A stretch of DNA of 64,000 bases from an uncultured Hyphomonadaceae bacterium (GTDB lineage: Bacteria; Pseudomonadota; Alphaproteobacteria; Caulobacterales; Maricaulaceae): contig CAJXPX010000006.1 in NCBI GenBank assembly GCA_913058335.1, forward strand, positions 62,001-126,000. The letters are read 5' to 3'. The translations under genes were made by a program, and so were the position numbers. Positions within the stretch are counted from its first letter, which is position 1; each line of letters opens with the position of its first letter. Below the pieces are notes generated by a model. That model saw nothing but the letters and a program-made list of their open reading frames with translations. It did no database searches and was not told the origin of the DNA. Shown piece by piece: positions 2,248 to 52,154 of the stretch.

Positions 2248-3369
2248 ATGACCGATACGTCCCCGCTTTTCGACTCCGCCGAGATGGGAGAACTCACGCT
2301 TTCCAATCGCGTCCTGATGGCGCCGCTAACCCGTAATCGTGCGCAAGCCGACGGCACGCCCAAAACCATGGCGCAAACCTATTACCATCAACGCAGCTCC
2401 GCCGGACTGATTGTGACCGAGGCAACACAAATTTCGGATATGGGAAAAGGCTATTTGGATACGCCCGGAATATATGACGGAAGCCATGTCCTAAGCTGGA
2501 AAAAGATTACAGATGCGGTCCATGCCGGGGGCGGGCAGATTTTCTGCCAGCTCTGGCATGTGGGCCGCATCAGCCACACCTCTCTCTTGCCGGACGGTAA
2601 ATCCCCAGTCGCACCCAGCGCTATTCGGGCCGAAACAGAGACATTTACGGCCGAAGGATTCCAAGCCTGCTCCGAACCCGTGGCTTTGACCAAAGAGGGA
2701 ATAGAGCAAACCATTAAAGATTACGCCAAGGCGGCCCTCTTTGCCAAAAATGCCGGCTTTGACGGCGTCGAAGTTCACAGTGCGAATGGCTATTTACTTG
2801 ACCAATTCCTGCAAGACGGCGCCAATGAACGTGACGACGAATATGGCGGATCTATTGAAAACCGGACTCGCTTGCTCCGTCAAGTTCTGGAAACCGTTAT
2901 GGAGGTTTGGCCCTCTCACCGGATTGGGGTCCGCCTCTCTCCGCTCGGCCAAGCCAATGATATAAGCGACAGCGATAAGGAAGGCACATTTTCATATACC
3001 TATAAAATGTTATCCGATTTCAAACTCGCCTATCTTCACGTCGTTGAGCGTTTTCCCGGAAATGAATCAGATGGGAAAGACGAAAAGCTCATCAAAAATC
3101 TTCGAAAGCAATATGACGGATTTTATATTGCAAATGGCGATTATGATGCAGAGCAGGCCGTCAAAGTGATTGAGAGCGGTCATGCTGATGCCGTCACCTT
3201 TGGGCGTCCCTTTATTGCCAATCCTGATTTGCCTGAGCGATTCCGCCTCGATGCGAAACTGAATGAACCCAATCCAGATACATTTTACGGGGGGGATGAA
3301 ACCGGATATACCGATTACCCCTTCCTCGACGAACAAGACGAAAACTCTAAAAAGGAAGACGCCGCATGA
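2248..3369 (+). CDS. Old yellow enzyme family alkene reductase (NemA-like)
   Basis: FMN-dependent NAD(P)H oxidoreductase that reduces activated C=C bonds, nitro compounds or N-ethylmaleimide-like electrophiles. The 373 residues carry the family landmarks. These are an N-terminal LSNRVLMAPLTRNRA strand, the His/Asn substrate pair in HSANGYLLDQF, the following DGANERDDEYGGSIENRTR block, and the C-terminal FMN phosphate loop VTFGRPFIANPDLPERF. The C-terminus has a short acidic tail. The stop codon overlaps the start of the aldehyde dehydrogenase by 4 bases (ATGA). The two are therefore probably translated together, which suggests joint handling of reactive enal or quinone compounds and the aldehydes made from them. 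The physiological substrate cannot be read from the sequence. Confidence 0.92.
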   Translation: MTDTSPLFDSAEMGELTLSNRVLMAPLTRNRAQADGTPKTMAQTYYHQRSSAGLIVTEATQISDMGKGYLDTPGIYDGSHVLSWKKITDAVHAGGGQIFCQLWHVGRISHTSLLPDGKSPVAPSAIRAETETFTAEGFQACSEPVALTKEGIEQTIKDYAKAALFAKNAGFDGVEVHSANGYLLDQFLQDGANERDDEYGGSIENRTRLLRQVLETVMEVWPSHRIGVRLSPLGQANDISDSDKEGTFSYTYKMLSDFKLAYLHVVERFPGNESDGKDEKLIKNLRKQYDGFYIANGDYDAEQAVKVIESGHADAVTFGRPFIANPDLPERFRLDAKLNEPNPDTFYGGDETGYTDYPFLDEQDENSKKEDAA

Positions 3370-4742
3370 ACCCGACAGTCACAATTAACCCGGCCACCGA
3401 AAATGTCATTGAACGACATCCAAAGTTAACCGATTTCCAATTAACTGAAGCGGTAGAAAATTGCCACAAAGCTTATCTCGACTGGCGCCATGAGAGCCTT
3501 GAAGCGCGCGCTAAAATTATGGGGAAAATTGGTGAATCCTTGAGGAAGCATAAGGATGAACTGGCGGCGCTTATGACTGAAGAGATGGGAAAACTTCTCT
3601 CTCAGAGTCAGGAAGAAGTCGAGCTTTGCGCAGGTATTTGCGAATATACAGCAGAAAATGGCCCATCAGAGCTAGCTGATGAAAAGCGCGATATAGACGA
3701 CGAAACGCGCGGCATAATTACCTACTCTCCCATAGGCGTTATCTACGGCATTCAGCCTTGGAATTACCCGACCTACCAAGTGATTAGGTATTCTATCGCT
3801 AATCTAATGGCGGGCAATGGCGTCTTATTAAAACATGCGTCCAATGTCACTGGCTCCGGTAAACTCCTTCAGAAAATATATGAAGACGCCGGATTACCAA
3901 AGCACCTCTTTAGAACGCTGGTTATTTCTCATGAGCAATCAGATACGGTTATTTCCAATGAGCGGGTTCGCGGCGTGACGCTGACGGGCAGTTCAGAGGC
4001 CGGACGAATGATTGCCCAAAAAGCGGGCAAAGTTTTAAAGAAAACCGTTTTGGAGCTGGGCTCTAACGACGCCTATATTGTTTTGGCGGATGCCGATATT
4101 GAGGCCGCCGTCAAAGTCTGCGTCAATGGTCGTGTTTATAATAATGGTGAGACCTGTATTGCCGCAAAACGCTTTATTGTCGTCGAAGATATTTATGAGG
4201 AGTTCCGCGACGCCTATGTCAAAGCCATGTCAGCCCTGACGACAGGCGATCCGACATCAGGCGAATTTGATATGGGCCCGATGGCGCGCAAAGACCTTCG
4301 CGATGATTTGCACAAACAAGTTCAGGACAGTGTTGCGGCCGGAGCTGAAATCCTTTGCGGCGGGGAAATGCCAGACGGGAAAGGATACTTCTATCCTTCG
4401 ACCGTTCTCGGCAATGTTCTTCCCGGTCAGCCTGCTTATGATGATGAGCTGTTCGGCCCTGTTGCCTCGCTCATCAAAGCCAAAGACGCAAAAGACGCGA
4501 TGCGTATTGCCAATGACAGCCAATTCGGACTGGGCGGCGGCATCATGACCAAAGACACGGACAAAGCCATTGAGCTGGCCCGCGATCATTTCGACACAGG
4601 CATGATTTTTATCAACCGCTTCGGTTTAGCTGTCCCTAATATGCCGTTTGGCGGTGTCAAAGACTCCGGCTATGGGCGCGAACATGGCGGGTTTGGCGTC
4701 AAAGAGTTTGTAAACATAAAATCCTTATTGATACAGAAATAG
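3366..4742 (+). CDS. NAD(P)-dependent aldehyde / succinate-semialdehyde dehydrogenase (Sad/GabD-like)
   Basis: Oxidises an aldehyde to the carboxylic acid. The 458-residue protein has the full ALDH catalytic set: Asn133 (in QPWNYPT), general base Glu230 (LELGSND) and nucleophile Cys264 (NNGETCIAAKRF). The nucleotide-binding segment VTLTGSSEAG precedes the Glu. The short N-terminus and overall length resemble the YneI/Sad subgroup of succinate-semialdehyde dehydrogenases, but the substrate is an inference. It starts inside the stop of the old-yellow-enzyme gene (ATGA overlap), so the two form an operon. After the stop comes a short AT-rich gap holding a TATAAT box for the next gene. Confidence 0.9.
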   Translation: MNPTVTINPATENVIERHPKLTDFQLTEAVENCHKAYLDWRHESLEARAKIMGKIGESLRKHKDELAALMTEEMGKLLSQSQEEVELCAGICEYTAENGPSELADEKRDIDDETRGIITYSPIGVIYGIQPWNYPTYQVIRYSIANLMAGNGVLLKHASNVTGSGKLLQKIYEDAGLPKHLFRTLVISHEQSDTVISNERVRGVTLTGSSEAGRMIAQKAGKVLKKTVLELGSNDAYIVLADADIEAAVKVCVNGRVYNNGETCIAAKRFIVVEDIYEEFRDAYVKAMSALTTGDPTSGEFDMGPMARKDLRDDLHKQVQDSVAAGAEILCGGEMPDGKGYFYPSTVLGNVLPGQPAYDDELFGPVASLIKAKDAKDAMRIANDSQFGLGGGIMTKDTDKAIELARDHFDTGMIFINRFGLAVPNMPFGGVKDSGYGREHGGFGVKEFVNIKSLLIQK

Positions 4743-4811
4743 CTAGGCCCGACTTTTTGCCCCAATATTTAAGGCAATTTAATATTAGCAGACAGGTCGA
4801 TAGACTTATGA

Positions 4812-4817
4812 TATAAT
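4812..4817 (+). promoter_or_regulatory. Putative -10 box (TATAAT) for the TPR gene
   Basis: A perfect TATAAT lies about 27 bases upstream of the TTG start of the TolB-like/TPR gene. No good TTGACA match sits at 16-18 bases upstream, only a weak GCAGACA-like sequence, so this is a partial promoter call. Confidence 0.4.
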
Positions 4818-4843
4818 GGCTTCAGGTTTTCTCTGAGGCCAAT

Positions 4844-7042
4844 TTGACATCGTTACTTTCAGAACTGCGTAGGCGTAATATTTTCCGGGTCGCCGGAGCT
4901 TATGCTGTGGTCAGTTGGATTATGGTGCAAATTGCCGCTATTACCTCTGCCAGTTTCGGGGCTCCCGACTGGGTCATGAAGATGATTATTATAACTCTGG
5001 TCATCGGGTTTCCGGTGGCCATAGTGCTGGCTTGGGCCTTTGAAATGACTCCGGACGGCGTAAAACCAACGGAAACAATACCCTCGGAGGAGAGTATTGC
5101 CTCACAAACGGGACGGAAACTGGATTGGGCAATTCTCATTGGACTTATGGTCGTGGGAGGGCTGTTGGCCTTTGGCGAAATTATTCGCCCTGCCCCGTCC
5201 AATCAACCTCTGTCAGAAATCTCCGACGAAGCTCTGTCGCAGGCGGCAGACTCCACCGAATGGGATCTGGCGACTATTGGCCCCGCGGAAAGCAGTAATC
5301 AAGCAACGCAATCCATAGCGGTTCTGCCTTTCGAGGATTATTCAGCCGAAAAAGACCAAGACTATTTCGCCAAGGGTATATCCGAAGAACTCCTTAATGT
5401 TCTCGCGCGCATCAGGGGCTTACGCGTTGCCTCGCGGACGTCAGCATTTGCATTTGGCGGCCAGAACAAAAGCGTTCAAGAAATCCGGCAGGCGTTGAAT
5501 GTTTCTCATATTTTAGACGGCAGCGTTCGAAAGGCCGGAGACACGCTCCGTATCTCGGCGCAGTTAGTTGACACGACCAATGACAACCAAATTTGGTCCG
5601 CGACTTATGACAGACCACTCACAGCGAAAAACATCTTTAACGTACAGGATGAAATCGCGACGGCCATTGTAGAGGAATTAAAAGGTCGGCTCACTTTTAC
5701 TCCTGAAGGCGAGACAGGCCGCACTGTTTCTCTCGAAGCTTATGAGCTATATCTGAAAGCAAGAGAGCAATCCAATCAGCGGCTCCCCGCACCGCTTCTG
5801 GCGTCTATCGGTGATTTTGAAAAAGTAATTACTCTGGATCCAAAATTTTCCCATGCCTATTCCGGCTTGGCAGATAGTTACATGTTGGCTTTCGCCTATG
5901 GGGCCTTGCCGAAAGAAGCCGCCAAAGTTGAGTCGCGCAAAAACATTGATCGGGCGCTGGTCTTATCTCCCAATTCAGCTGAAACCCTGACAAGTGCGGC
6001 AATGTATGACCATATGTTTTCCGAAAGCTCTGACTCTGAGGCGGCCATAGATTACGCCCTTAAAGCCGTTGCGGCCAATCCTAACTATTCCGTCGCCTTT
6101 CACCGTTTGGGGCAGGCCTATGCGAAAAAAGGCGAGTATGAGAAAAGCTTGAAGGCATTTGAACAAGCGAGAACGCTCGACCCCCTCTCCGCCTCGATTC
6201 TAAATAATATCGCCCGGATTCAGCGCCTCACAGGAGATTGGAAAGCGGCCAAAGCTACGACACTAGACAACATTAAATGGAATCCGGATCAGCCTGCCGG
6301 ACATATTGCTCTCTCTGTTTTTTATTTTTATGAGGGCGACTTCCTAAATAGTTTCTTAGCCGCCAAGGAAGGTCAGGCCTTAAATCCAAATGATCCGACC
6401 CCGCCCATTATTCTGAAGGAAATCCTCATCAAGGCGAGACTATTCGATAAAGCTCTGACGATGGATAATAGCGCGGAGACGCAGGCCGCCATCGCATTCG
6501 AAAAAGGTGATTTTGAGACTGCGCGATCAAGACTGCCACAGTTTAAAGACCTCACACAAAAAGCGTACCTTGCTTATATGTTGAAAGATTATGAGCGCGC
6601 CGCCACGGCCTATGATAAGGTTATCATGGAAAAAAGCTATAAAGTGCTCAAAGCGGACACGGATAATTTGGTCGATTTTGCAAATATTAGTTTTGTCTTT
6701 GGCAAGTTGGGCCTCCCCAAATCCGCCTCTTATCGAACGCGCCTGAAAGACTATTACGGCGACCAAAGCGCTGATGATTTTGATCAGCTTAATCAATTAT
6801 GGGCGGGCGCGGTTTTTAAGGCGTCCGGAAATACCCCGCAAAACGCCCTGCCTTGGATTGATCGTATGGTTTCTCTCGGTCAGGCGGATAATATGTTGGA
6901 AGGCCCGGCTTTTGATACCTTGCGTAAGACCCCTGAATTTGAGGCATATGCAGCGCGGATGAGCGAAAACCGGACCATTTTGAACGCGGCCCTTAAGGCC
7001 AAATTGGCCGATCCCGAACCTAATTGGATCGAGACCGACTAA
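4844..7042 (+). CDS. Membrane protein with TolB-like (FlgO-type) domain and TPR repeats
   Basis: Inner-membrane protein of 732 residues. A basic N-terminus (LLSELRRRNIFRVAGAY) leads into transmembrane segments at about 15-35 and 44-66, with a third at 94-111. Next comes a TolB N-terminal/FlgO-like domain around 152-270 (SIAVLPFEDYSAEKDQDYFA, then ILDGSVRKAGDTLRISAQLV), followed by TPR repeats to roughly residue 560. This architecture is common in alphaproteobacteria, often downstream of adenylate-cyclase or winged-helix domains, but no such domain is present here. The start is a TTG preceded by TGAGG at suitable distance. Function unknown; protein-protein scaffolding at the membrane is likely from the TPRs. 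It converges with the metallopeptidase gene. Confidence 0.82.
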   Translation: MTSLLSELRRRNIFRVAGAYAVVSWIMVQIAAITSASFGAPDWVMKMIIITLVIGFPVAIVLAWAFEMTPDGVKPTETIPSEESIASQTGRKLDWAILIGLMVVGGLLAFGEIIRPAPSNQPLSEISDEALSQAADSTEWDLATIGPAESSNQATQSIAVLPFEDYSAEKDQDYFAKGISEELLNVLARIRGLRVASRTSAFAFGGQNKSVQEIRQALNVSHILDGSVRKAGDTLRISAQLVDTTNDNQIWSATYDRPLTAKNIFNVQDEIATAIVEELKGRLTFTPEGETGRTVSLEAYELYLKAREQSNQRLPAPLLASIGDFEKVITLDPKFSHAYSGLADSYMLAFAYGALPKEAAKVESRKNIDRALVLSPNSAETLTSAAMYDHMFSESSDSEAAIDYALKAVAANPNYSVAFHRLGQAYAKKGEYEKSLKAFEQARTLDPLSASILNNIARIQRLTGDWKAAKATTLDNIKWNPDQPAGHIALSVFYFYEGDFLNSFLAAKEGQALNPNDPTPPIILKEILIKARLFDKALTMDNSAETQAAIAFEKGDFETARSRLPQFKDLTQKAYLAYMLKDYERAATAYDKVIMEKSYKVLKADTDNLVDFANISFVFGKLGLPKSASYRTRLKDYYGDQSADDFDQLNQLWAGAVFKASGNTPQNALPWIDRMVSLGQADNMLEGPAFDTLRKTPEFEAYAARMSENRTILNAALKAKLADPEPNWIETD

Positions 7043-39332: not shown

Positions 39333-39797
39333 ATGCCAAAGATAGATCTGAAAGAATTAAAGGTAACGACTGGAACCAATTATCCGCCGCCGCACGACGC
39401 GCCCTGCCTCGCCCGCAGCAAAATTTCACTTGGGGACCCTGTCGGCCTCACACAATTTGGCGCCCATATTGTTACTCTTCCGCCGGGCGCTTGGTCGTCT
39501 CAAAGGCATTGGCATAGCGAGGAAGACGAATTGGTGATTGTTCTTAAAGGCCATCCGACCTTATTTGATGAAAGAGGGCCTCAAACTCTGTCCCCCGGAG
39601 ATATCACAGCGCATAAAGCCGGTGTTCCCAACGGACACCATATGAAAAACGAAACCAATGAGTTGATAAAGTTTTTAATTATTGGAGGACGAGCACCAGA
39701 AACTGATCACGTTCAGTATCCCGATATCGACCTGTGTTTGCCTGCAAATGGAACATCAAACCGACGTTACACACACAATAATGGGGAACCTTATTAA
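39333..39797 (+). CDS. Cupin-domain protein
   Basis: 154 residues forming one double-stranded beta-helix. Cupin motif 1 is HWHSEEDELVIVLKG (two His and a Glu for metal binding) and motif 2 is AGVPNGHHMKNET. Such single-domain cupins bind a divalent metal and act as small-molecule sensors, isomerases or dioxygenases. The neighbouring sugar epimerase suggests a carbohydrate link, but this is inference. The stop codon interlocks with that of the epimerase on the other strand (TTAA). Confidence 0.8.
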   Translation: MPKIDLKELKVTTGTNYPPPHDAPCLARSKISLGDPVGLTQFGAHIVTLPPGAWSSQRHWHSEEDELVIVLKGHPTLFDERGPQTLSPGDITAHKAGVPNGHHMKNETNELIKFLIIGGRAPETDHVQYPDIDLCLPANGTSNRRYTHNNGEPY

Positions 39798-40768
39798 AGG
39801 TTATAAAATTTGCGGTACCAGTCAACAAAATTTAGGATGCCTTTTTGGAGACTAACCTTAGGCTCGAACCCGAAATCCCGTTTTGCGGCACGAATATCAG
39901 CGTAAGTTGACGTTACATCGCCTTTTTGCTGTTCCTTAATAAACGATTTGGCTTTAATCCCACAAGCGGCCTCGACCGCCCCGACTAGATCCATCAATCG
40001 GTTTGGTCGCGAGTTTCCGAGATTGTAAATCTTATGAAGAGCTTCTCCTGATGGAGGACTTGCTAACAACCTCGGAAGGATGGAAACTATATCGTCCACA
40101 TAGGTAAAATCACGGCTCATAATATCAGGCGCGTAAAGTGTGATGGGTTCACCCGTCAAAATCTTTTTCGTAAAAATAAAGTAGGCCATATCGGGCCGGC
40201 CCCAAGGGCCGTACACAGTAAAAAACCTCAGTCCCGTTTGGGGAATTTTATAAAGTTGAGCATAGCTCTCTGACAGCATTTCGCCGCCAAGTTTCGTTGC
40301 GGCATAGAGCGAGGCGGGTCGCCTGACGACATCGCTTTCAGAAAACGGACCGCCCTCCCGCTCTCCGTAAACTGACGAAGAGCTGGCATAAGCAACATGT
40401 TCCAAACCATCCAGATGACGGGCATATTCGAGAACATTCAAATGCCCCATAACATTTGACGAGACATAAGCGCGAGGGTTTTCCAAGCTGTAACGCACCC
40501 CCGCCTGCGCGGCTAAATTCAGAATATGCGTAATTTTCGTTGATCCTAGCGCCGTTTCCAGTGCGCCTTCTTTGGCCGTATCCAGCTGGAAAAAACGAAA
40601 CCCTTTATTTTTCTTAAGGCGGTTAAGCCGGGCCTTTTTCAGTTCTACATCATAATAATCGTTAAGATTATCAACCCCGACAACCTCATGTCCTTCTGCC
40701 AATAGGGCCTGCGCAGAGTGATATCCAATAAACCCGGCCGCGCCTGTTAACAAAACTCTCATGCGCAT
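39794..40768 (-). CDS. NAD-dependent UDP-glucuronate 4-epimerase-like protein
   Basis: 324-residue extended SDR. The Rossmann glycine motif is TGAAGFIGYHSAQAL, and VDNLNDYYDVELK is the sequence typical of UDP-glucuronate epimerases. The catalytic YAATK (Tyr, Lys) is preceded by a serine-rich ASSSSVYG, and RFFTVYGPWGRPDMA follows. It converts UDP-glucuronate to UDP-galacturonate for surface polysaccharide. It is divergent from the AGE-family epimerase, with about 48 bases between them. Confidence 0.88.
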   Translation of the reverse strand: MRMRVLLTGAAGFIGYHSAQALLAEGHEVVGVDNLNDYYDVELKKARLNRLKKNKGFRFFQLDTAKEGALETALGSTKITHILNLAAQAGVRYSLENPRAYVSSNVMGHLNVLEYARHLDGLEHVAYASSSSVYGEREGGPFSESDVVRRPASLYAATKLGGEMLSESYAQLYKIPQTGLRFFTVYGPWGRPDMAYFIFTKKILTGEPITLYAPDIMSRDFTYVDDIVSILPRLLASPPSGEALHKIYNLGNSRPNRLMDLVGAVEAACGIKAKSFIKEQQKGDVTSTYADIRAAKRDFGFEPKVSLQKGILNFVDWYRKFYNL

Positions 40769-40816
40769 GCTTTAGACGCTTCGTTAAAGGGAAGAAAGTT
40801 AAAGGTTTAAAGAGTT

Positions 40817-41926
40817 ATGACCCCCGCTCTCGTAAAATCTGCCGATCGGCTTAAACAGTGGTGTATAGATAAAGCCTTGCCATTTTGGGCTAAAACGGCG
40901 CAATTACCAGACGGCGGCTGGGTTGAACATCTCCGACTTGATCGGTCGCCTGACTTTAACGCGGAGCGCCGCTGGCGAATATTGGCCCGTCAAATTTATG
41001 TTTACTCAGAGGCCGCGCGCCTAGGATGGTATCAAGGCGAAGAAGTCGCCCAGCGCACATTTGATCGTCTTCAAGAGACCGGTTACGTCCAGCGCGTTAC
41101 GCCTGATGGGCAAGTCACGGAGCGGAGGCGGGATTTATATGACCATGCCTTTTACCTCTTGGGCAGTTCTAGCCTTTATCGGCTAACCCGAGACGCCAAA
41201 TTTCTGAAATCCGCAAATGATATTTTGAAAACGCTTCGGGATGATTTCTCTCATGCGTCAGGGGGATGGCAAGAAACGCCCCGCGGTGAAGTTCCGAGAC
41301 GTCAAAACCCGCATATGCATCTGTTCGAATCGTCCCTCTATTTATATGTCGCAACCGGTGACCCGGCTCATTTGGATATAGCTCACGAGATCTTCAAACT
41401 GTTTGAAGAGCACTTTTTTGATTGTAAAAATAATATCGTCATTGAGTATTTTACGATTGATTGGAAAAAACATACAGGAGAGAAACGAGATTTTTCAGAA
41501 CCGGGACATGCCATGGAGTGGGTATGGCTTTTAACGCAATATCAAAATATTACGGGTCAAGACACGCTCGGCTACGCCCAGAGACTTTATGACAGAGCCC
41601 TTACGCAACGACCGTTTTTTCTGAATGATGAAGAAAGCGCTTCGGGCGAAATTCTACGAGAAACCAAACGACTTTGGGTTCAAACCGAGTCGATCAAAGC
41701 TCACCTCGCTATGGCAGAAAGGGGCCAAACAGGCGCGGCAGATTGTGCGGCGGCACTAATTGACGGCCTGTTCGGGCTTTATCTGAATTCTGATGGGACA
41801 TGGAATGATCAACTCAATGCTTGCGGCGCCAATATTGCCACAACTATTCCGGTCAGCACATTTTATCATATTCTATGTATGGCCGCAGAAACAAAGCGGG
41901 TCAGTGGCTTAAACAATCAAAAATAA
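40817..41926 (+). CDS. AGE-family epimerase/isomerase
   Basis: 369 residues of the N-acylglucosamine 2-epimerase superfamily, an (alpha/alpha)6 barrel. Typical blocks are RRDLYDHAFYLLGSSSLYRL, RRQNPHMHLFESSLYL, PGHAMEWVWLLTQY (His/Glu catalytic region) and KRLWVQTESIKAHLAM. Relatives interconvert mannose/fructose, cellobiose or N-acylglucosamine. The substrate here is not determined. It sits in a small polysaccharide-flavoured cluster with the UDP-glucuronate epimerase. Confidence 0.88.
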   Translation: MTPALVKSADRLKQWCIDKALPFWAKTAQLPDGGWVEHLRLDRSPDFNAERRWRILARQIYVYSEAARLGWYQGEEVAQRTFDRLQETGYVQRVTPDGQVTERRRDLYDHAFYLLGSSSLYRLTRDAKFLKSANDILKTLRDDFSHASGGWQETPRGEVPRRQNPHMHLFESSLYLYVATGDPAHLDIAHEIFKLFEEHFFDCKNNIVIEYFTIDWKKHTGEKRDFSEPGHAMEWVWLLTQYQNITGQDTLGYAQRLYDRALTQRPFFLNDEESASGEILRETKRLWVQTESIKAHLAMAERGQTGAADCAAALIDGLFGLYLNSDGTWNDQLNACGANIATTIPVSTFYHILCMAAETKRVSGLNNQK

Positions 41927-41942: not shown

Positions 41943-42515
41943 TCACTCTAAGACTTCAACTTTAAACCGCGAAATATCCATCTCCCGCTGATCGCCCTTT
42001 TCATCAGGCCAAACGCCGAAATAATCGAGATCTGGTTCGGCTATTGGCAATGGCGGAGTGAAAGTGAAGCTATAATCTTGGAAATTTGGGGTTAGCCCAA
42101 AGCTTTTCCAGCCACTATCGCCCGGGCCCGAGGTGAAATACCCCATTTGAAACTTACCTGTTGGATTGGCACTTCCTTGTCGTGCCGTCAGGGTCATACG
42201 AAGGGTTCTGCCCGCAAAAGCCTGCTCATAATCCGCGCCAAGAGGGGCAAAGACCCCGGCAGACGCCGGCGCGGCATCGCGTGAGAGATGGGCCGCCGCC
42301 GTGACAAAAGCAGGTTCTCTCGCCGTTTTTCCAGTAAAGACAACCGTTGTTCCAGGGGAAGCCTGAGTAAGCGCCAGATCTTCGCCCTCAACGACATAAC
42401 CTTGCGAGATGATCTCCGCTTCTGACAAATCATCCCGACAGCTGGGCAACATGGCGACGATTACAATCAGAGCCACCCCTAAGATCAGCAATGGATAGAA
42501 AAAACGGTCCTGCAT
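41943..42515 (-). CDS. Hypothetical membrane-anchored or lipidated envelope protein
   Basis: 190 residues from the ATG that follows GGAGG closely. A hydrophobic N-terminus (FFYPLLILGVALIVIVAM) ends in LPSC, a possible lipobox. The rest is a beta-rich domain without recognised motifs (phrases such as VVFTGKTAREPAFVTAAAH and RTLRMTLTARQGSANPTGKF recall carbohydrate-binding modules). The reading frame extends upstream to 42611, but that part is not needed. It is divergent from the small periplasmic gene at 42655. Confidence 0.6.
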   Translation of the reverse strand: MQDRFFYPLLILGVALIVIVAMLPSCRDDLSEAEIISQGYVVEGEDLALTQASPGTTVVFTGKTAREPAFVTAAAHLSRDAAPASAGVFAPLGADYEQAFAGRTLRMTLTARQGSANPTGKFQMGYFTSGPGDSGWKSFGLTPNFQDYSFTFTPPLPIAEPDLDYFGVWPDEKGDQREMDISRFKVEVLE

Positions 42516-42654
42516 CATGCCTCCGTCTAAAGCGCGGAACAGAGAAGTGCGCAAGACTATTAAGACAAATATTACAGAGAAGTTCACTTCGATTTGAAGA
42601 GACCTAGCCAATATTTCATGGTTAATGTAAGCTTAATTTTTATTGGAGGATATC

Positions 42655-43240: not shown

Positions 43241-45166
43241 CTAAATTAGAAATAGGACGGCGCGTTCATCAGCCCGTTCGACAAGAGCGCGTTTGAGCAT
43301 ATTGGTCAGTTCGGCACTAAAACGTTCTGCGGCCGCTTCATCCCAGGCTTTGGAAACGGCTTTTATCAAATCAGGGCGCTGCCTTTTTGCAGCGGCCCTG
43401 ACACGCGCGTCACTTAAAATTTGGCGTGCGAAAACTGGCAATTTGGATTTACGCATTTTCCCGGAAATTGCTTTTCGCCCGAATATATATCCGCCGCCCA
43501 AAAGCGCGCCGCCCACAACAATGCCAATGGGATTAACGAAAAGCGCCGCGAATAAGTTTGCTTTTGCGAGAAGCGCGCTGACCAGCAAGGCACTCACCCC
43601 TGTTCCGACAAGCGCGGTATCAGATTCTAATGAGGCCATACCGGGCGCCGAAACCGACAGGCCTTCCAGATGACGGCTCACATGCTCGCTGCCATCAAGG
43701 CTAAGCACCATAGCGGGCAGACCATGCGCACGGCAAAGCGGGTCTGTATGGGCTTCGATATCGCGCTGTAGAGTTGCAAACCAGTTATCGATAACAGGGC
43801 GAAGGCTCTCACGGGCCTTATCGGATTCCAGCCAATTTTTTACTTTCTCTTCAAGCACGCCCTCCACATCATCCAAGGAAGTGATTGCGCCGCTACGCCA
43901 GTCCCGAAAGGCCGGCAGAATGCAGTCTTCAGTCATCGCATCGACTAGAACAGGAGCGATGAGTCCCCCAAGCGATTGCGCTTTTTCCTGCGCACGTAAA
44001 TGTACTTTTCCATCCTCGGCTAATAATGCCGCCGTTTCCATTTTGAAATTGGCGTGGAGATATTCAAATCGGCCCAACCATGCCAGACCCCGCGCTATGG
44101 CAAATTCAGGTTCGGCCCCGCGTATGACACGCGCTTTCGGAAAGGCTTTTTGTGTCGCGGGGAGCACGAGAGGCAAGCGCGAAGCGCCCCCTGTCAAAAG
44201 AACTGTATCCGGGGCTCGCCCGCCAAGGGCCTCAATGGTTTCTGTCAGCGCGTAATCAAACGCCTCTTTCCAGCTATAGCTATTAAGCGCGTCCAGAGGG
44301 GTTTCCAATATATGCTTGGCGTCTTTCTTATCTATGCGGATATCGAAAAAGACCCGCTTCCCTGCTGGGAGCCGTTTGATCATTTCGACAGGAATATCTT
44401 CGCCAGTAAAAAACGCCTCTTTTGCCTGGCGGCACCAATAGGTCAAAATGGATTTATAATGCGGGAAGGTTTGTATTAATTTCTCAATCTCTTTTTTCGA
44501 TTTCTGCCTCGAAAGATTGAGCTTGAAAATTTCGTCATCCAGTAAGCCTGAGCCGAGTTCGTTATGACCAACATCATCGGCGTCTAGATCCCGGCAATAG
44601 GTAAAATCAGTCGTGGAAGATCCGATATCAATAATTAGAACCGAAGCCCGTGTATCTTCAATCGAAACATATCCCTGCTCCAAAGCGGTCATTAACGCCG
44701 CGCGGCTTTCCGGTACGATCCTAACGGTATTTAGGCCAGCCTGCTCAAAAACTTTGCGGTAAGCCTCTCGTGTAGGGTTATCCCATCCTGATGGACATCC
44801 AATTACGAAGCGGCTTTTTTTCGGCCCGCGTATCGTCTTTTCTTTAGACAGTCCTTCTATCAATGCCTGAGTAAAATAGGTTATAGGTTTCGCCGTTTTA
44901 GCGTCCAAATGGCGACTTTTAAATTTTAGCCAGACATCAGGTTTATGGGACGCAAAAGAAAGACTTAGCGCATCCGATCCAATTTTAATTTCTTTGCCGT
45001 CTTTAGCCACTGCGGTGACAAAACTACGCTGTCCGCGATATTCGAGTATTTCCGGCTCGCGTACAGTTGCGCCGTAAGCGCGGCCCAAGGCCGTTTCGCC
45101 GTGGCCAAGATCAAACCCGATAAATTCTTCATCAGTTTGAAGACGTGTTGTTGGAAGTTTGCTCAT
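43241..45166 (-). CDS. Hsp70-like ATPase with C-terminal membrane hairpin
   Basis: 641 residues. The N-terminal ~365 are an Hsp70/actin-fold ATPase: phosphate-1 GFDLGHGE (Asp19), connect-1-like RIVPESRAALMTALEQG, phosphate-2 LIIDIGSSTTDFTY (Asp180), and the adenosine loop LLTGGASRLPLV (Gly326-Gly327). The normal beta-sandwich substrate-binding domain and lid are missing. Residues ~370-515 are mixed helical. Residues ~515-562 form a glycine-rich transmembrane hairpin (GTGVSALLVSALLAKANLF, FVNPIGIVVGGALLGGGYIF), followed by a basic tail. The start codon overlaps the stop of the GrpE-like gene (ATGA). Function unknown; I infer a membrane-tethered chaperone-like or filament-like machine. This is not DnaK. 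Confidence 0.78.
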   Translation of the reverse strand: MSKLPTTRLQTDEEFIGFDLGHGETALGRAYGATVREPEILEYRGQRSFVTAVAKDGKEIKIGSDALSLSFASHKPDVWLKFKSRHLDAKTAKPITYFTQALIEGLSKEKTIRGPKKSRFVIGCPSGWDNPTREAYRKVFEQAGLNTVRIVPESRAALMTALEQGYVSIEDTRASVLIIDIGSSTTDFTYCRDLDADDVGHNELGSGLLDDEIFKLNLSRQKSKKEIEKLIQTFPHYKSILTYWCRQAKEAFFTGEDIPVEMIKRLPAGKRVFFDIRIDKKDAKHILETPLDALNSYSWKEAFDYALTETIEALGGRAPDTVLLTGGASRLPLVLPATQKAFPKARVIRGAEPEFAIARGLAWLGRFEYLHANFKMETAALLAEDGKVHLRAQEKAQSLGGLIAPVLVDAMTEDCILPAFRDWRSGAITSLDDVEGVLEEKVKNWLESDKARESLRPVIDNWFATLQRDIEAHTDPLCRAHGLPAMVLSLDGSEHVSRHLEGLSVSAPGMASLESDTALVGTGVSALLVSALLAKANLFAALFVNPIGIVVGGALLGGGYIFGRKAISGKMRKSKLPVFARQILSDARVRAAAKRQRPDLIKAVSKAWDEAAAERFSAELTNMLKRALVERADERAVLFLI

Positions 45167-46074
45167 TTACGTATCCAAACAGTGCCGCGCCGTAAGAGAC
45201 GTCCGCCCTCGCCCACCAAAGCCGGAGCGGCCATTTCTATAGCCGGATCGCCTTCGTTAACGACTAGAGCTGGAAGTTCATCAAACATATGCTTGGTAGA
45301 TTTATCAAACTCTACAGCCTCTATTCCCGCTGAGGCGAGGACGCTTTTCATATCTTTCCCAACAACTTGAAGAGCGTAATTCCCATCTGAGGCAGCATTC
45401 GCTTCAAGCAAATTTTGGAAGACCGACATTAGGGCCGGGTCGTCCCGCCAATGGGCATCGGGTTCTGTTTGGACCATACGCGCCAATATATGATCCGCCG
45501 TAGCTAAGGCGTCGCTGATCTGATTTATGAATCCGGCGCTATCCGTTCGAATTGAGGCTTGCGCCGTGACGTTTCGGCCGTCCGGCGAAGGCAAAGCTTT
45601 CGGCTTTGGCATGAATGGAAGCCGCGAAAACATATTTAATTTGAAATGAGATAGCGCATGGAGCGCCGCGAGACTGACGGCGCTTATTACAACCAAACCA
45701 ATCCCTTGTACCAAACCAGCTGTCGCGAGGCCTGCCGCCCCAAAATAAAACAGGCCGGGGCGCCAATCTTTTAACCCGTCAAACAATCCGTATTTGGGCG
45801 CTGTTTCTATCAAAGTGACATCTGCATGGGTGGCCCGGTCGAGAACCCCTGCCCCAGATTTAATAATTTCCAATAACCATAAGCCCGCTTTTTGAACCTG
45901 CGGGTCTGTCACGTTTCGGGTAAAACTGAGCCCTGTTCGATCCAAGGCCCGCCTCATTTCGCCGACGACTTGTGAAGGGGATAAATCATCCTTCAAGGAC
46001 TGGCGCAGCTGCTGACGCTCTTGCGCAAAATGGTGCGCGAGGGACGGCGGGGAAATGAGAGCTTTGGTCTCCAT
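45163..46074 (-). CDS. Membrane protein with GrpE-like C-terminal domain
   Basis: 303 residues, first gene of the Hsp70-like operon. The N-terminal ~100 residues are helical and soluble. Residues ~107-142 form a transmembrane hairpin (GLFYFGAAGLATAGLVQGIG, LVVISAVSLAALHAL). The C-terminal 120 residues look like the GrpE helix plus beta domain: a long helix (NQISDALATADHILARMVQ), then GIEAVEFDKSTKHMFDELPA and a final GEGGRLLRRGTVWIRK. Compare the G-x-FDP-x-x-H-E and RxLRPAxVxV patterns of GrpE. I infer a nucleotide-exchange partner for the adjacent Hsp70-like ATPase. It is a remote match, recognised only by eye. A promoter with little or no leader lies just upstream. Confidence 0.55.
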   Translation of the reverse strand: METKALISPPSLAHHFAQERQQLRQSLKDDLSPSQVVGEMRRALDRTGLSFTRNVTDPQVQKAGLWLLEIIKSGAGVLDRATHADVTLIETAPKYGLFDGLKDWRPGLFYFGAAGLATAGLVQGIGLVVISAVSLAALHALSHFKLNMFSRLPFMPKPKALPSPDGRNVTAQASIRTDSAGFINQISDALATADHILARMVQTEPDAHWRDDPALMSVFQNLLEANAASDGNYALQVVGKDMKSVLASAGIEAVEFDKSTKHMFDELPALVVNEGDPAIEMAAPALVGEGGRLLRRGTVWIRK

Positions 46075-46081
46075 AGAGACT

Positions 46082-46112
46082 ATTATGTCGGGTCGCCTCG
46101 CCCAACTGTCAA
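46082..46112 (-). promoter_or_regulatory. Putative promoter of the Hsp70-like operon
   Basis: On the minus strand, TTGACA (46107-46112) and CATAAT (46082-46087) are separated by 19 bases. Transcription would begin within a base or two of the start codon at 46074. There is no ribosome-binding sequence before that ATG, so the message may be leaderless. Confidence 0.4.
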
Positions 46113-46252
46113 GTCAGCGCGACCGCGCTGGCAAAGTATTGTTTTAGCCTGATTAGTTAAAGGGCCTTCGCCTCTATCGAAAATCGGAACGAGGTCAGTT
46201 ATCGCACGTAATAAAAATGCACTGTTCGCCCGCCCATCCTCAAGAGGCCCTG

Positions 46253-46705
46253 ATGAATCAGACTGAAATGAACCAAGCAGAAATAAATCTGACGCAAATC
46301 GACGCTTTAAACGATGTGACCCAAACATTAATCGATAGTTATGAGGGCTATAAAACCTGCTTGGAGGATATGGAAGAAGATTACGCCCTGCGGTCACAAT
46401 TTTCCAGCCGCGCCGCGTCGCGCTCCCAATTAATTTCCGAATTTCAAACCTCGGTGCGTGAACTGGGCGGAGAAGCTGTTACAAAGGGGTCCGTTTCAGG
46501 CGCGGCGCATCGCGGCTGGACAAAGCTAACAGCTTTCTTTCAGGATGATGAAAAAGCGGCGAGTCAAGCCGTCAGTGACGGAGAAAGGTTCCTAGCCGAG
46601 AGAATAAATGAACTTATGAGAGACCCGAATCTGACGCCCGAGACACTGGCGCTTCTTCGCAAAGCCTATGCCAGCGCAACCAAGGGAGATATCCAAGCAG
46701 ATTAA
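46253..46705 (+). CDS. PA2169/DUF2383-family four-helix-bundle protein
   Basis: 150 residues. Recognised from the order of family phrases: ALNDVTQTLIDSYEGYKTCL, SRAASRSQLISEFQTSVREL, GGEAVTKGSVSGAAHRGWTK, and a last helix ending DPNLTPETLALLRKAYA. The fold is ferritin-like, with no clear di-iron ligands visible. Members are stress- or stationary-phase-linked with unknown role. The ATG chosen follows AGAGG; an in-frame ATG 12 codons earlier is less likely. It is divergent from the Hsp70/GrpE-like operon, 178 bases apart, so shared regulation is possible. Confidence 0.8.
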   Translation: MNQTEMNQAEINLTQIDALNDVTQTLIDSYEGYKTCLEDMEEDYALRSQFSSRAASRSQLISEFQTSVRELGGEAVTKGSVSGAAHRGWTKLTAFFQDDEKAASQAVSDGERFLAERINELMRDPNLTPETLALLRKAYASATKGDIQAD

Positions 46706-47243: not shown

Positions 47244-48794
47244 TTATTCTTCGACGGGCGGGGTCCAGCGCAGGACAGGATTTCGAGCTGCCTTGGTTTC
47301 ATCCAATCGCCGCATTGGGGCGTAAACTGGCGCTTGTTTAAAGCTCTCCGCTTCGCCCGCTTTAGCCCGCTCCGCGAGGGAACGCATAGTCAGGATAAAG
47401 CGGTCCAGTTCTCCTTTGGATTCGGATTCAGTGGGTTCAATCAGCATCGCCCCGTGAACAACAAGCGGGAAGTACATCGTCATAGGGTGATATCCTTCAT
47501 CAATCATGGCCTTGGCAAAATCGAGCGTGTCGACGCCCGTATCTTTCAAGAAACGATCATCAAACAAGGCTTCATGCATACAGGTTCCTTCAAATGCTAC
47601 TGTCATGACATCTGACAAAGACGACTGAATATAATTGGCATTTAAAACCGCATCTTCTGTCGCCTGTTTCAGACCATCAGAACCATGGCTCATCATGTAA
47701 GTCAGCGCGCGGCTATACATACCCATTTGACCGTGGAAGGCGCACATACGGCCAAAGCTTCCTTCTGCCTCTCCGCCTTCATGTTCAACCAATCTAAACC
47801 CGTCCGCGTCTTTAACGACGAATGGTAGGGGCGCAAAGTCTTTCAATGCATCGGACAAAACCGTCGGGCCGGATCCAGGGCCGCCGCCGCCATGCGGGGT
47901 GGAAAACGTCTTGTGCAGATTAATGTGCATCGCATCGACACCCAGATCGCCCGGACGGACGCGCCCGACAAGGGCGTTGAAGTTGGCGCCATCGCAATAA
48001 AAATACCCGCCTGCGCCATGAATGAGGTCAGCAATTTCGACAATATCGCGTTCAAACAAACCACACGTATTTGGATTGGTCAGCATGATACCGGCAACGT
48101 CATCACTTTCTTTCAGCTTTTCGCGTAGCGCGTCTAAGTTCACACGGCCGTCTCCAGACGCCGGGATTTCATCTACGGTAAAGCCGCATTGTACCGCTGT
48201 GGCAGGATTAGTGCCATGGGCACTTTCCGGCACAAGCACGCGGCGGCGCTGTGACTGACCATCCGCATCGAGACGCGCCCGTATCGCCATCATACCGCAA
48301 AGCTCGCCATGCGCTCCGGCTTTTGGTGTCAGCGCGACGGCCGGCATATTGCAAAGTGTCATTAGCCAATGGGATAACTGATGCATAAGCTCTAACGCGC
48401 CTTGCACTGTGCTGGTCGGTTGAAGAGGGTGGACATCGGCGAAGCCCGGCATACGCGCAACTTTTTCATTCAAACGCGGATTGTGCTTCATGGTGCAAGA
48501 ACCGAGCGGATAAATGCCTAGGTCAATCGCATAATTTTTCTGACTCAAGCGCACGTAATGGCGCATCGTTTCGGGCTCTGACAATCCGGGCAGGCCAATT
48601 TCCCCCGTCCGTTCCTGTCCCCCGAGGCGGGACGCGCGGCCCTTGGGTTCTGGTAAGTCCACACCTGTGCGGCGCGGTGTACCAATTTCGAAAATCAGAT
48701 TTACGGCCTGATCCAAACCTTTGGACCCTGATACGGTCAGACGTTCATTTGAATTGATGGCAACGGGTGTTGTGGGGCGACCTTCGTTATTCAT
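47244..48794 (-). CDS. gcvPB: Glycine dehydrogenase (decarboxylating) subunit 2
   Basis: 516 residues, the PLP-bearing half of the split P-protein of the glycine cleavage system. It decarboxylates glycine and passes the aminomethyl group to lipoyl-GcvH. The PLP lysine is in [17 protein letters not shown]. Other landmarks are [10 protein letters not shown] near residue 100 and [10 protein letters not shown]. The start overlaps the gcvPA stop by 4 bases, and an intrinsic terminator follows the stop. It is the last gene of the riboswitch-led gcv operon. Confidence 0.97.
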
Positions 48795-50128
48795 GACAAG
48801 ACCTCCGTCAGGGCTTTTTCAAAGGCGTGTATATCCTCTTCGCTGGAGGTTTCTGTAGCGCAGACGAGCAGCAAGTCTTCATTGCCCTCTGTCAGGCGAG
48901 ATACGGGGACGCCGCCCAATACGCCTTTTTTGGCGAGTGCCTCCACTACGTCAGCGGCAGGTTTATTTAATTTGACCGTGAACTCATTAAAGAACGACTC
49001 ATTCATCACCTCTGCGCCGTGTATCCCATCAATGACGTCTGCGAGATGGCAGGCAGCCTCATGATTAAGCGCCGCGAGGCGCTTGAGCCCGGCATCGCCA
49101 AGCAAGCTCATGTGAATGGTGAAGGCGAGACAGCAAAGACCAGAATTGGTGCAAATATTTGACGTCGCTTTTTCGCGGCGGATATGTTGCTCACGCGTGG
49201 AGAGCGTCAATACGAATCCGCGTTCGCCGTTGGCATCTACAGTTTCGCCGCAGAGGCGACCTGGCATTTGCCTAACGAGTTTTTTAGTACAAGCGAACAA
49301 TCCAACGTGAGGGCCGCCAAAATTCAGGCCGACGCCTAAGCCCTGACCTTCGCCGACAACAATATCTGCCCCTTGTTCCCCCGGAGACTTAATGGCGCCG
49401 AGGGCAACAGGTTCTGTGAAGACAGCGATTAAAAGGGCTTTATGCTTATGCGCTTTTTCGGCAATCGGCGCGAGGTCGATGATTTCGCCGAATACGTTTG
49501 GCGATTGAACTACCACACAAGCTGTGTCGTCATTAATATGGTCAATGACATGATCATCGCGGCCAGGTCGGCAATCGCGCTCATCAATTTGAATATCGAG
49601 CGTTGACGCCAATGTCTGGGTCGCCGCTGCATAATGAGGGTGCAATCCGGGCGCGAGAATAGCTCTGGATTTACGGGTGACACGTTTGGCCATAACAACA
49701 GCTTCGGCGCAGGCCGTTGAACCGTCATACATGGAAGCATTTGCCACATCCATACCCGTGAGAAGCGCGACCTGAGTTTGAAACTCGAACAAAGCTTGCA
49801 AGGTACCCTGACTGATTTCCGGCTGATAAGGCGTATAGGCGGTCAAAAATTCAGAACGCTGAATCAGGTGGTCCACAGTAGCAGGAATATGGTGTTTATA
49901 AGCCCCGGCCCCGCAGAAAAACGGAACAGAACCAGCCGAAACAGATTTCGCCGACAGTTTGGCCATATGGCGCTCAATCGCTTGCTCGGACTGATGCTTT
50001 GGTAAATCGACGAGCGTTTCCAGGCGCGCCTTTTCAGGCACATCCTGAAACAAATAATCAATGGACTTGGCGCCAATGACATCGAGCATAGCAACCCGGT
50101 CATTTTCATTTAATGGCAAATAACGCAT
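48791..50128 (-). CDS. gcvPA: Glycine dehydrogenase (decarboxylating) subunit 1
   Basis: 445 residues, the partner half of the split P-protein. It begins [19 protein letters not shown] and has [37 protein letters not shown] and [15 protein letters not shown] as expected. The AAGGAAG ribosome site lies within the end of the preceding tiny membrane gene, so translation is probably coupled to it. Confidence 0.97.
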
Positions 50129-50323
50129 TTAATCTTCCTTATTGTCGGTGTCGACATCATTATTCTTGGATTTATCTTGGCCTGTCCTCGCAGCTCCAAG
50201 TCCGGCCCCAATGGCAACGCCGAGGGAAAGCCATAGCGCAAGGTTTTCTGTCGCCACGCCAATAGCTGCGCCGATGGCTACCCCGACAGCAAGGGTGACT
50301 CCAAATTTCGACCCGTTGCCCAT
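50129..50323 (-). CDS. Tiny glycine-zipper membrane protein (gcv operon)
   Basis: 64 residues with two short hydrophobic helices rich in Gly/Ala (GVTLAVGVAIGAAIGVA and WLSLGVAIGAGLGAA) and a hydrophilic, acidic tail (DVDTDNKED). It ends exactly where gcvPA begins and is preceded by AAGGA seven bases before its ATG. The glycine repeats suggest helix packing or oligomerisation. It is the third of three tiny membrane genes in a row between gcvH and gcvPA. Unknown function. Confidence 0.7.
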   Translation of the reverse strand: MGNGSKFGVTLAVGVAIGAAIGVATENLALWLSLGVAIGAGLGAARTGQDKSKNNDVDTDNKED

Positions 50324-50464
50324 TTAATTATCCTTATCGTTGTCGAAATCGACATCTGATGTTTCGTGACCCGGTCGCCCGGAAATCATTTTGCGAGAAA
50401 GATAAGCAACAAGAATGACCAAGCCGATGGTGATGATCCAAAATACAGGATTTGAGGCGCTCAT
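50324..50464 (-). CDS. Tiny single-pass membrane protein (gcv operon)
   Basis: 46 residues: one transmembrane helix (FWIITIGLVILVAYLS), then a basic RKMISGRPGH and an acidic tail ending DFDNDKDN. Its stop codon abuts the start of the next tiny gene. The acidic tail resembles that of its downstream neighbour, hinting at a common origin or shared partner. Too short for family recognition. Confidence 0.6.
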   Translation of the reverse strand: MSASNPVFWIITIGLVILVAYLSRKMISGRPGHETSDVDFDNDKDN

Positions 50465-50467
50465 GAT

Positions 50468-50578
50468 TTACGTTCCACTTTTATTTTTAAAGCTTCGAAC
50501 CAGGGGACGGATAACCAGGACCCAAAGAAGCAAGACGACGAGACAGGCGCCCATTATGGCAAATAGAGGTAGGTTCAT
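50468..50578 (-). CDS. Tiny single-pass membrane protein (gcv operon)
   Basis: 36 residues: a hydrophobic helix of about 20 (LPLFAIMGACLVVLLLWVLV) followed by a basic end (RPLVRSFKNKSG). The stop is only three bases from the start of the next tiny gene. The ribosome site (GGAAA) is weak, so it could be translated by readthrough ribosomes from gcvH or may be non-coding. The neighbouring layout supports it. Confidence 0.5.
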   Translation of the reverse strand: MNLPLFAIMGACLVVLLLWVLVIRPLVRSFKNKSGT

Positions 50579-50625
50579 TTCGAGTTTCCGATAACATCGC
50601 TCCCCATAATGTGAGGAAAAAAGCT

Positions 50626-50997
50626 CTATAGGCCTTCGCAATAAGCTTTATATTTCGTCTCATCCATTAAGCCATCCAAATCAGACGTGTCTTTGATCTT
50701 CAGCTTGAGGAACCAACCGTCTCCGTCCGGTGACGCATTGACGGTTTCCGGCGCGTCTTCGAGCGCTTCATTGACTTCCGTCACTTCGCCGCCAATCGGC
50801 GCGTAAACTTCAGAGGCCGCTTTTACAGATTCTACAACGGCGGCTTCGTCGCCCTTTTCCATTTTGCGCCCGACCTCGGGTAGTTCAACAAAGACAACAT
50901 CACCGAGTTGTTTGGCGGCATAGGCAGAAATGCCCATTACGGCCGTGTCACCGTCGACTTTTACCCATTCGTGATCTTCTGTGTATTTAATTGACAT
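50626..50997 (-). CDS. gcvH: Glycine cleavage system H protein
   Basis: 123 residues. It carries the lipoyl arm that shuttles the aminomethyl group between P, T and L proteins. The lipoylated Lys59 is in VESVKAASEVYAP, the standard motif, and the N-terminus KYTEDHEWVKVDG is typical. It follows gcvT after two bases. Confidence 0.97.
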   Translation of the reverse strand: MSIKYTEDHEWVKVDGDTAVMGISAYAAKQLGDVVFVELPEVGRKMEKGDEAAVVESVKAASEVYAPIGGEVTEVNEALEDAPETVNASPDGDGWFLKLKIKDTSDLDGLMDETKYKAYCEGL

Positions 50998-50999
50998 GG

Positions 51000-52154
51000 T
51001 TAGTTTCCTCTGAAGTAATTATGCGGCGCGAAAGGTAGTTTCACGACTGTGGCGGGGCGGGGTTTGCCCCGAACGATAAGTTGAACGGGCGTACCCGCTT
51101 TGAAGAATTTTCGAGCGACATAGCCCATCGCGATCGGGCCATCGACTGTCGGGCCGTAGCCGCCGCTAGTGATTTCACCGATCGTATTTCCGTCCATGTC
51201 CTGAACTTCGGTATGTTCACGTGCAGGCGCTTTGCCGTCAGGTTTAATTCCAACGAGACGTTTTGTGGTTTTATCTGCCAAGTCCGAGGCGACCCGCTTC
51301 GCGCCTAAATATCCAGCGTCTGCACTGCGGCGATTTTTTTGCACAGACCAAATAAGACCTGCTTCTATGGGAGAGACGCTGGTATCTATATCATGGCCAT
51401 AGAGGCAAAGCCCGGCTTCGAGACGTAAGCTGTCCCGCGCACCGAGGCCGATGGGCTCGATATCGTCATAGCTCAAAAGCTCTTCGACCAAGCGCACCAT
51501 ATCGTCATGTTTTGCGGAGATTTCATATCCGTCTTCGCCCGTATATCCAGACCGGGACACATGAGCCCAGACGGGCGCGTCCAGAGTACCTTTTAACTCC
51601 AGATCGGCATGAGTCATAAAGGTCAGTTTTTCAACATCAGAATTGAGGCACGCCAAAACAGCGGCGGCGCGCGGGCCTTGCAAAGCAATCAGGGAAAGAG
51701 TGTCGTCTTTGACGGAGACCTTTACATTTTCGGGCATATGTTTTTCAAGATGGGCGTAGTCAGCGTCTTTACATCCCGCATTGACGACCAGATAAAGGAC
51801 ATGTTCATAGCCCGGCAAAGCGAGGCGGGAGATCATCAAATCATCCAAAATTCCGCCGTCTTCGTTCAGGAATTGGGAATAGCGCTGCTCTCCCGGCTTA
51901 AGGCTTTGAATGTCGGCGGGAACAAGTTTTTCGAGGGCCTTGGCGGTGGTCGAGAAATCCTTATCATCAGGGGTCAGAAAGACCTGTCCCATATGGGAGA
52001 CATCGAACAGACCGGCCTTTTCGCGCGTATGGAGGTGTTCACCTTTGACGCCGAGCAGATATTGCACAGGCATATCATAGCCTGCAAAAGGCACCATTTT
52101 GGCACCGAGGTCGACATGTTGGCTGTGAAGCGCTGTTTTTTTGAGCTCGCTCAT
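51000..52154 (-). CDS. gcvT: Aminomethyltransferase (glycine cleavage T protein)
   Basis: 384 residues. Releases ammonia and transfers the methylene group to tetrahydrofolate. The T-protein hallmarks are KMVPFAGYDMPVQYL, LFDVSHMGQV, SRSGYTGEDGYEI, GARDSLRLEAGLCLYG and a C-terminal GYVARKF. It is the first gene of the operon, directly behind the glycine riboswitch, and leads gcvH, three tiny membrane genes, gcvPA and gcvPB. Confidence 0.97.
   Translation of the reverse strand: MSELKKTALHSQHVDLGAKMVPFAGYDMPVQYLLGVKGEHLHTREKAGLFDVSHMGQVFLTPDDKDFSTTAKALEKLVPADIQSLKPGEQRYSQFLNEDGGILDDLMISRLALPGYEHVLYLVVNAGCKDADYAHLEKHMPENVKVSVKDDTLSLIALQGPRAAAVLACLNSDVEKLTFMTHADLELKGTLDAPVWAHVSRSGYTGEDGYEISAKHDDMVRLVEELLSYDDIEPIGLGARDSLRLEAGLCLYGHDIDTSVSPIEAGLIWSVQKNRRSADAGYLGAKRVASDLADKTTKRLVGIKPDGKAPAREHTEVQDMDGNTIGEITSGGYGPTVDGPIAMGYVARKFFKAGTPVQLIVRGKPRPATVVKLPFAPHNYFRGN

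Follow-up and report, generated by a model that had tools for sequence, protein, structure and literature searches.

In a 64-kb window from an uncultured Hyphomonadaceae bacterium with a genome size of 3.06 Mb, the positions of the open reading frames (ORFs) place two genes, here termed P and H, on the minus strand, with P as the first and H as the second gene. P (45163..46074) encodes a protein of 303 amino acids (aa) with a membrane hairpin and a GrpE-like C-terminal part, H (43241..45166) an Hsp70-type ATPase of 641 aa which continues into a helical tail unlike that of Hsp70. The two reading frames share the bases ATGA, with which P ends and H begins (45163..45166, minus strand); among distant loci, L056 and L061 likewise show a 4-base overlap. 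Kyte-Doolittle analysis revealed hydrophobic stretches of hairpin length in both proteins: residues 110-146 of P (45637..45747, minus strand), where the structure model places helices at 99-123 and 126-144, and residues 515-562 of H (43481..43624, minus strand), where the model is of low confidence. Both were read as hairpins. Both ORFs and their overlap were found where the first-pass annotation of this DNA had placed them, and its description of the second protein as a membrane protein agrees with the hydropathy of P.

The N-terminal part of H (residues 14-365; 44072..45127, minus strand) was identified as an Hsp70-type nucleotide-binding domain by profile comparisons and conserved residues. 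Pfam matched the window's H to PF00012 (Hsp70; 8.6e-9), with the match ending at residue 365, and to MreB_Mbl (3.6e-7), both above the cut-offs. Across 36 sequences (the window's H and H from 35 of the 80 loci of the genome scan described below) the Pfam counts were roughly even, with PF06723 in 31/36 and PF00012 in 30/36. Profile-profile comparison favored the DnaK nucleotide-binding domain (2.5e-14 across 326 columns) over MreB (1.3e-8), scores to be read against the 3e-16 obtained for DnaK versus MreB. Only the Pfam counts, taken alone, leave the two even. In a search of the PDB, the 36-member profile hit DnaK with 6.2e-14, covering profile positions 6-361, and the matches listed (60 of 109) belonged to the Hsp70 family throughout. 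Further matches were a PHROG partition protein (2.2e-11) and PRTRC_D (3.3e-9), while all 14 NCBIfam models listed scored under their cut-offs. Residues D19, K83, E153, D180 and T185 were invariant in 36/36 sequences; by motif, we take them to be equivalent to D8, K70, E171, D194 and T199 of DnaK, the pair K83/K70 being the least certain. This invariance makes ATPase activity of H likely. The computations show that H carries an Hsp70-type head with conserved catalytic-type residues. The Hsp70-fold ATPase proposed earlier was confirmed as a domain of the Hsp70/actin superfamily, with DnaK favored over MreB by profile.

In the predicted structure of P, residues 212-303 (45166..45441, minus strand) form a pair of helices joined by a small beta domain, as in the fold of GrpE. 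The profile-profile alignments with GrpE span the last 60-70 residues of P, and their score was more than two orders of magnitude lower than that of the best among 25 null families. The predicted structure of this end gave a middling score against GrpE; sequence and structure comparisons thus point to the same end of P and indicate a GrpE-like fold with moderate strength, backing what had initially been read by eye. Among the rows listed, direct family searches gave no GrpE match for P. No Pfam family matched the window's P at E <= 5, a search of the host genome with PF01025 (GrpE) recovered the canonical GrpE alone, and GrpE was absent among the matches listed (25 of 32 weak families) for 50 P members (the P of the window together with 49 of the 74 P references listed). 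The GrpE signature, searched in the loosened form F[DN].{2,3}[HM].A, occurred in 0/70 P but in 26/26 GrpE sequences; a looser end motif, too short to mean much, was found in 24/26 and 46/70, respectively. The GrpE reference set comprised 22, later 26 sequences, and loci unrecognised by the motif filter were omitted.

The remainder of H (residues 366-641; 43244..44071, minus strand) did not match the C-terminus of DnaK in profile comparison (P value of 0.3). The interdomain linker motif of DnaK, searched as a regular expression, occurred in 0/75 H compared with 20/23 Hsp70s; this H set was taken without L170, whose H is an open 640-codon frame. In the structure model, the tail, which includes the hydrophobic stretch, is all helical without strands and aligns with the stalks of bacterial dynamin-like proteins, and a weak profile match to LeoBC/LeoA was obtained. 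Dynamin families appeared neither in the five Pfam rows of the window's H nor among the matches listed (25 of 42) for the 36 members, and in place of a dynamin-type GTPase domain H has its Hsp70-type head. On this mixed evidence, the tail resembles a dynamin stalk, possibly, more than it does the C-terminus of DnaK.

The association of the two genes extends well beyond this genome. Among 200 genomes of the window's order, P was present in 13, including the window's own, and was located directly upstream of H in 13/13. In six genomes of one genus of another family, H occurred at 29-32% identity and was directly preceded by an ORF of about 260-294 aa (P2), in which a hydrophobic part and an end like that of GrpE were recognised by eye. 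The P profile search missed these P2 proteins, and their profile comparisons remained at noise level with both P (0.059) and GrpE (0.038; best null 0.014). A tblastn scan with H, using one genome per species, yielded at least 520 relatives, of which the best 80 were kept, a selection biased to near relatives. These best 80 of 520, most of them matched over almost the full length of H, include Nostocales cyanobacteria, Thiomargarita, a deltaproteobacterium, one member of the Lachnospiraceae and a Bacteroidetes metagenome-assembled genome (MAG). A P-like ORF lay directly upstream of H in 77/80 loci (two of these ORFs truncated at a contig end and one split in two); BLAST clustering placed 74/80 of the upstream ORFs in the P family. 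The genomes of the three exceptions also encode P: in one of them, L153 (Westiellopsis prolifica, 3291-5690), two genes of 435 and 328 aa lie between P and H. In L118 (2952-3949, a MAG) P appears as two overlapping ORFs, either through a gene break or through an assembly error. The P profile hit 1/398 genomes of a phylum sample, namely the window's own, and 3/117 cyanobacteria, the starting genome among them. P and H therefore stay adjacent beyond the genus, and the pair is patchily distributed across distant bacterial groups. The 13 order-level loci have members in common with the 80 loci of the scan (at least L093, L106, L108, L110, L117, L123, L127 and L135), and counts over the 93 loci hence include some genomes twice. 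Removal of similar sequences reduced the 93 P to 78, the nucleoside-hydrolase-like upstream ORF of L153 was left out of the P set, and the alignments were made without the short or broken P of L094, L101 and L118.

In Calothrix NIES-22 (L190, AP018209.1), H resides on a conjugative plasmid, where H and the preceding gene are both annotated as hypothetical. Judged by place and size, the preceding gene would be P. The plasmid location suggests that the pair can probably move. Phage-type integrase genes flank H on both sides on this plasmid. On a contig labelled Klebsiella pneumoniae (a MAG, L137), P and H are followed by three genes, and all five agree in order, and nearly in size, with those of a deltaproteobacterium MAG (L136); this label probably stems from misbinning. 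Among the titles and abstract openings listed by literature searches, with subscription papers outside the scope, none described the P-H pair.

The neighborhood of the pair is less constant. A protein of 193-222 aa (cluster 2) is encoded near H in alphaproteobacteria (42/93 loci) and has no occurrence in rows L136-L171 of the locus list, where nucleotide-sugar clusters do not occur either. Since these neighbor clusters are missing there, P-H is the smallest shared unit. The cluster 2 copy in the window (41943-42611) has a hydrophobic N-terminus by eye and zero Pfam matches. Nucleotide-sugar and polysaccharide genes, named by eye as epimerases, GalU-like and mannose-1-phosphate guanylyltransferase-like, recur near the pair in alphaproteobacteria; in the window such genes occupy 39794-41926, and they are neighbors also in L015-L026. 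The divergent gene on the plus strand (46217..46705) encodes a DUF2383 protein (PF09537, 2.6e-21), as was noted at first, and lies outside the module. It adjoins the pair in just 3/13 genomes of the order and in 6/93 loci, equal to four genomes after counting duplicate contigs once; its suggested co-regulation with the pair is not supported. Beyond it, glycine cleavage system-like genes (two P subunits, H and T, by eye) are found on the minus strand at 47244-52154. DnaK, GrpE and five J-domain matches of the host are encoded on other contigs; with 0 of these 5 matches on the window's contig, the earlier statement that no J-domain gene is near the pair was borne out.

Taken together, P and H are probably the two components of an ATPase module residing at the inner membrane, namely an Hsp70-type motor and a GrpE-like membrane partner. 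The hairpins in both proteins, the Hsp70 motor, the GrpE-like end and the lack of a DnaK-type peptide-binding domain would be consistent with an ATP cycle working through the membrane tail of H and reset by P. In H, the peptide-binding domain would be replaced by the helical tail with its hydrophobic hairpin, to which the Hsp70-type head is joined; P, anchored by its own hairpin, would display the GrpE-like domain. With the heads of both proteins presumably on the cytoplasmic side, this domain may dock on the head of H and speed ADP release, and hydrolysis may be set off by assembly or lipid rather than by a J-protein. The ATP cycle would then shift the tail of H such that the membrane is tethered, curved or remodelled, or that proteins are organised there, rather than peptides folded. 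A more specific and tentative version, which we hold to be somewhat doubtful, is that H is related to dynamin or mimics it but is powered by ATP, with a stalk bearing a hydrophobic tip and an Hsp70 head replacing the GTPase, and that P is the membrane-bound partner whose GrpE-like head resets the nucleotide; Hsp70 chemistry would here drive membrane remodelling, regulated by a dedicated exchange factor.

The first-pass annotation had proposed a dedicated membrane Hsp70 cycle with its own exchange factor, perhaps for envelope or stress proteins. The pairing of an Hsp70-type ATPase with a membrane-bound GrpE-like partner stood; the peptide-binding chaperone that such a cycle implies was not supported by the tail comparison and the missing linker. 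A membrane chaperone, in which the tail of H binds unfolded or membrane polypeptides, including envelope or stress clients, and P recycles H, accordingly appears unlikely. The Hsp70-type head and the GrpE-like partner would suit it, and the cluster 2 protein, anchored as judged by eye, could be a client. However, H has neither a match to the Hsp70 substrate-binding domain nor the linker, the window's contig is devoid of a J-domain gene, and cluster 2 does not accompany the pair in rows L136-L171.

Alternatively, the likeness of P to GrpE may reflect nothing but a common arrangement, in which a small beta domain comes after helices, and P may be a structural anchor without exchange activity. 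This is rather improbable in view of the distance of the GrpE score from the null families, the convergence of sequence and structure on one end of P, and the Hsp70-type head of its partner. Least expected is an actin/MreB-like or partition-like assembly, in which the head of H polymerises on the membrane, with P serving as an unrelated adaptor there. The even Pfam counts and the partition protein and PRTRC_D matches speak for such an assembly, but the profile comparison prefers DnaK, the PDB matches listed are all of the Hsp70 family, and the GrpE match at the end of P is at odds with it. Gripping polypeptides is what Hsp70 machines are known for. If the cycle of the proposed membrane module works as outlined, the engine of Hsp70 and exchange factor can couple to something besides peptide binding, and the two-protein P-H system is compact enough for testing this coupling. 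Should the dynamin-like stalk of H prove real, the known designs for membrane remodelling would be joined by one driven by ATP.

Compared with known systems, P-H shares with DnaK-GrpE the Hsp70-type ATPase head and a partner whose helix and beta part is GrpE-like, but differs in lacking the DnaK-type substrate-binding domain, the linker and the GrpE signature, in the hydrophobic hairpins of both proteins, and in the missing J-domain gene on the window's contig. HSPA13/STCH, a eukaryotic protein of the endoplasmic reticulum, resembles H in that an Hsp70 head without substrate-binding domain is tied to a membrane system, although in a eukaryotic setting; we know of no dedicated GrpE-like membrane partner of this protein. 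Yeast Snl1 is an Hsp70 exchange factor. Like P, for which this role is predicted, it is tethered to a membrane, but it is a BAG-domain protein (PMC3962485) and not GrpE-like in fold. Bacterial dynamin-like proteins (the Campylobacter pair 5owv, SynDLP, BDLP and LeoA/LeoBC) are similar to H in the modelled stalk alignment, in the weak LeoBC/LeoA profile match and in a hydrophobic part, and are often encoded in pairs (PMC4159319); P-H is set apart by the Hsp70-type ATPase head in place of a dynamin GTPase and by a partner ending GrpE-like. In a cyanobacterial dynamin 'chaperone' clade, dynamin and DnaK-domain protein are separate genes, the latter downstream, and the word 'grpe' occurs 0 times in the text of the paper (PMC5827413). 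This clade nevertheless shares with P-H a genomic tie between a dynamin-like membrane protein and an Hsp70-type protein, and the link is a lead pointing in the same direction as a membrane-acting cycle of H.
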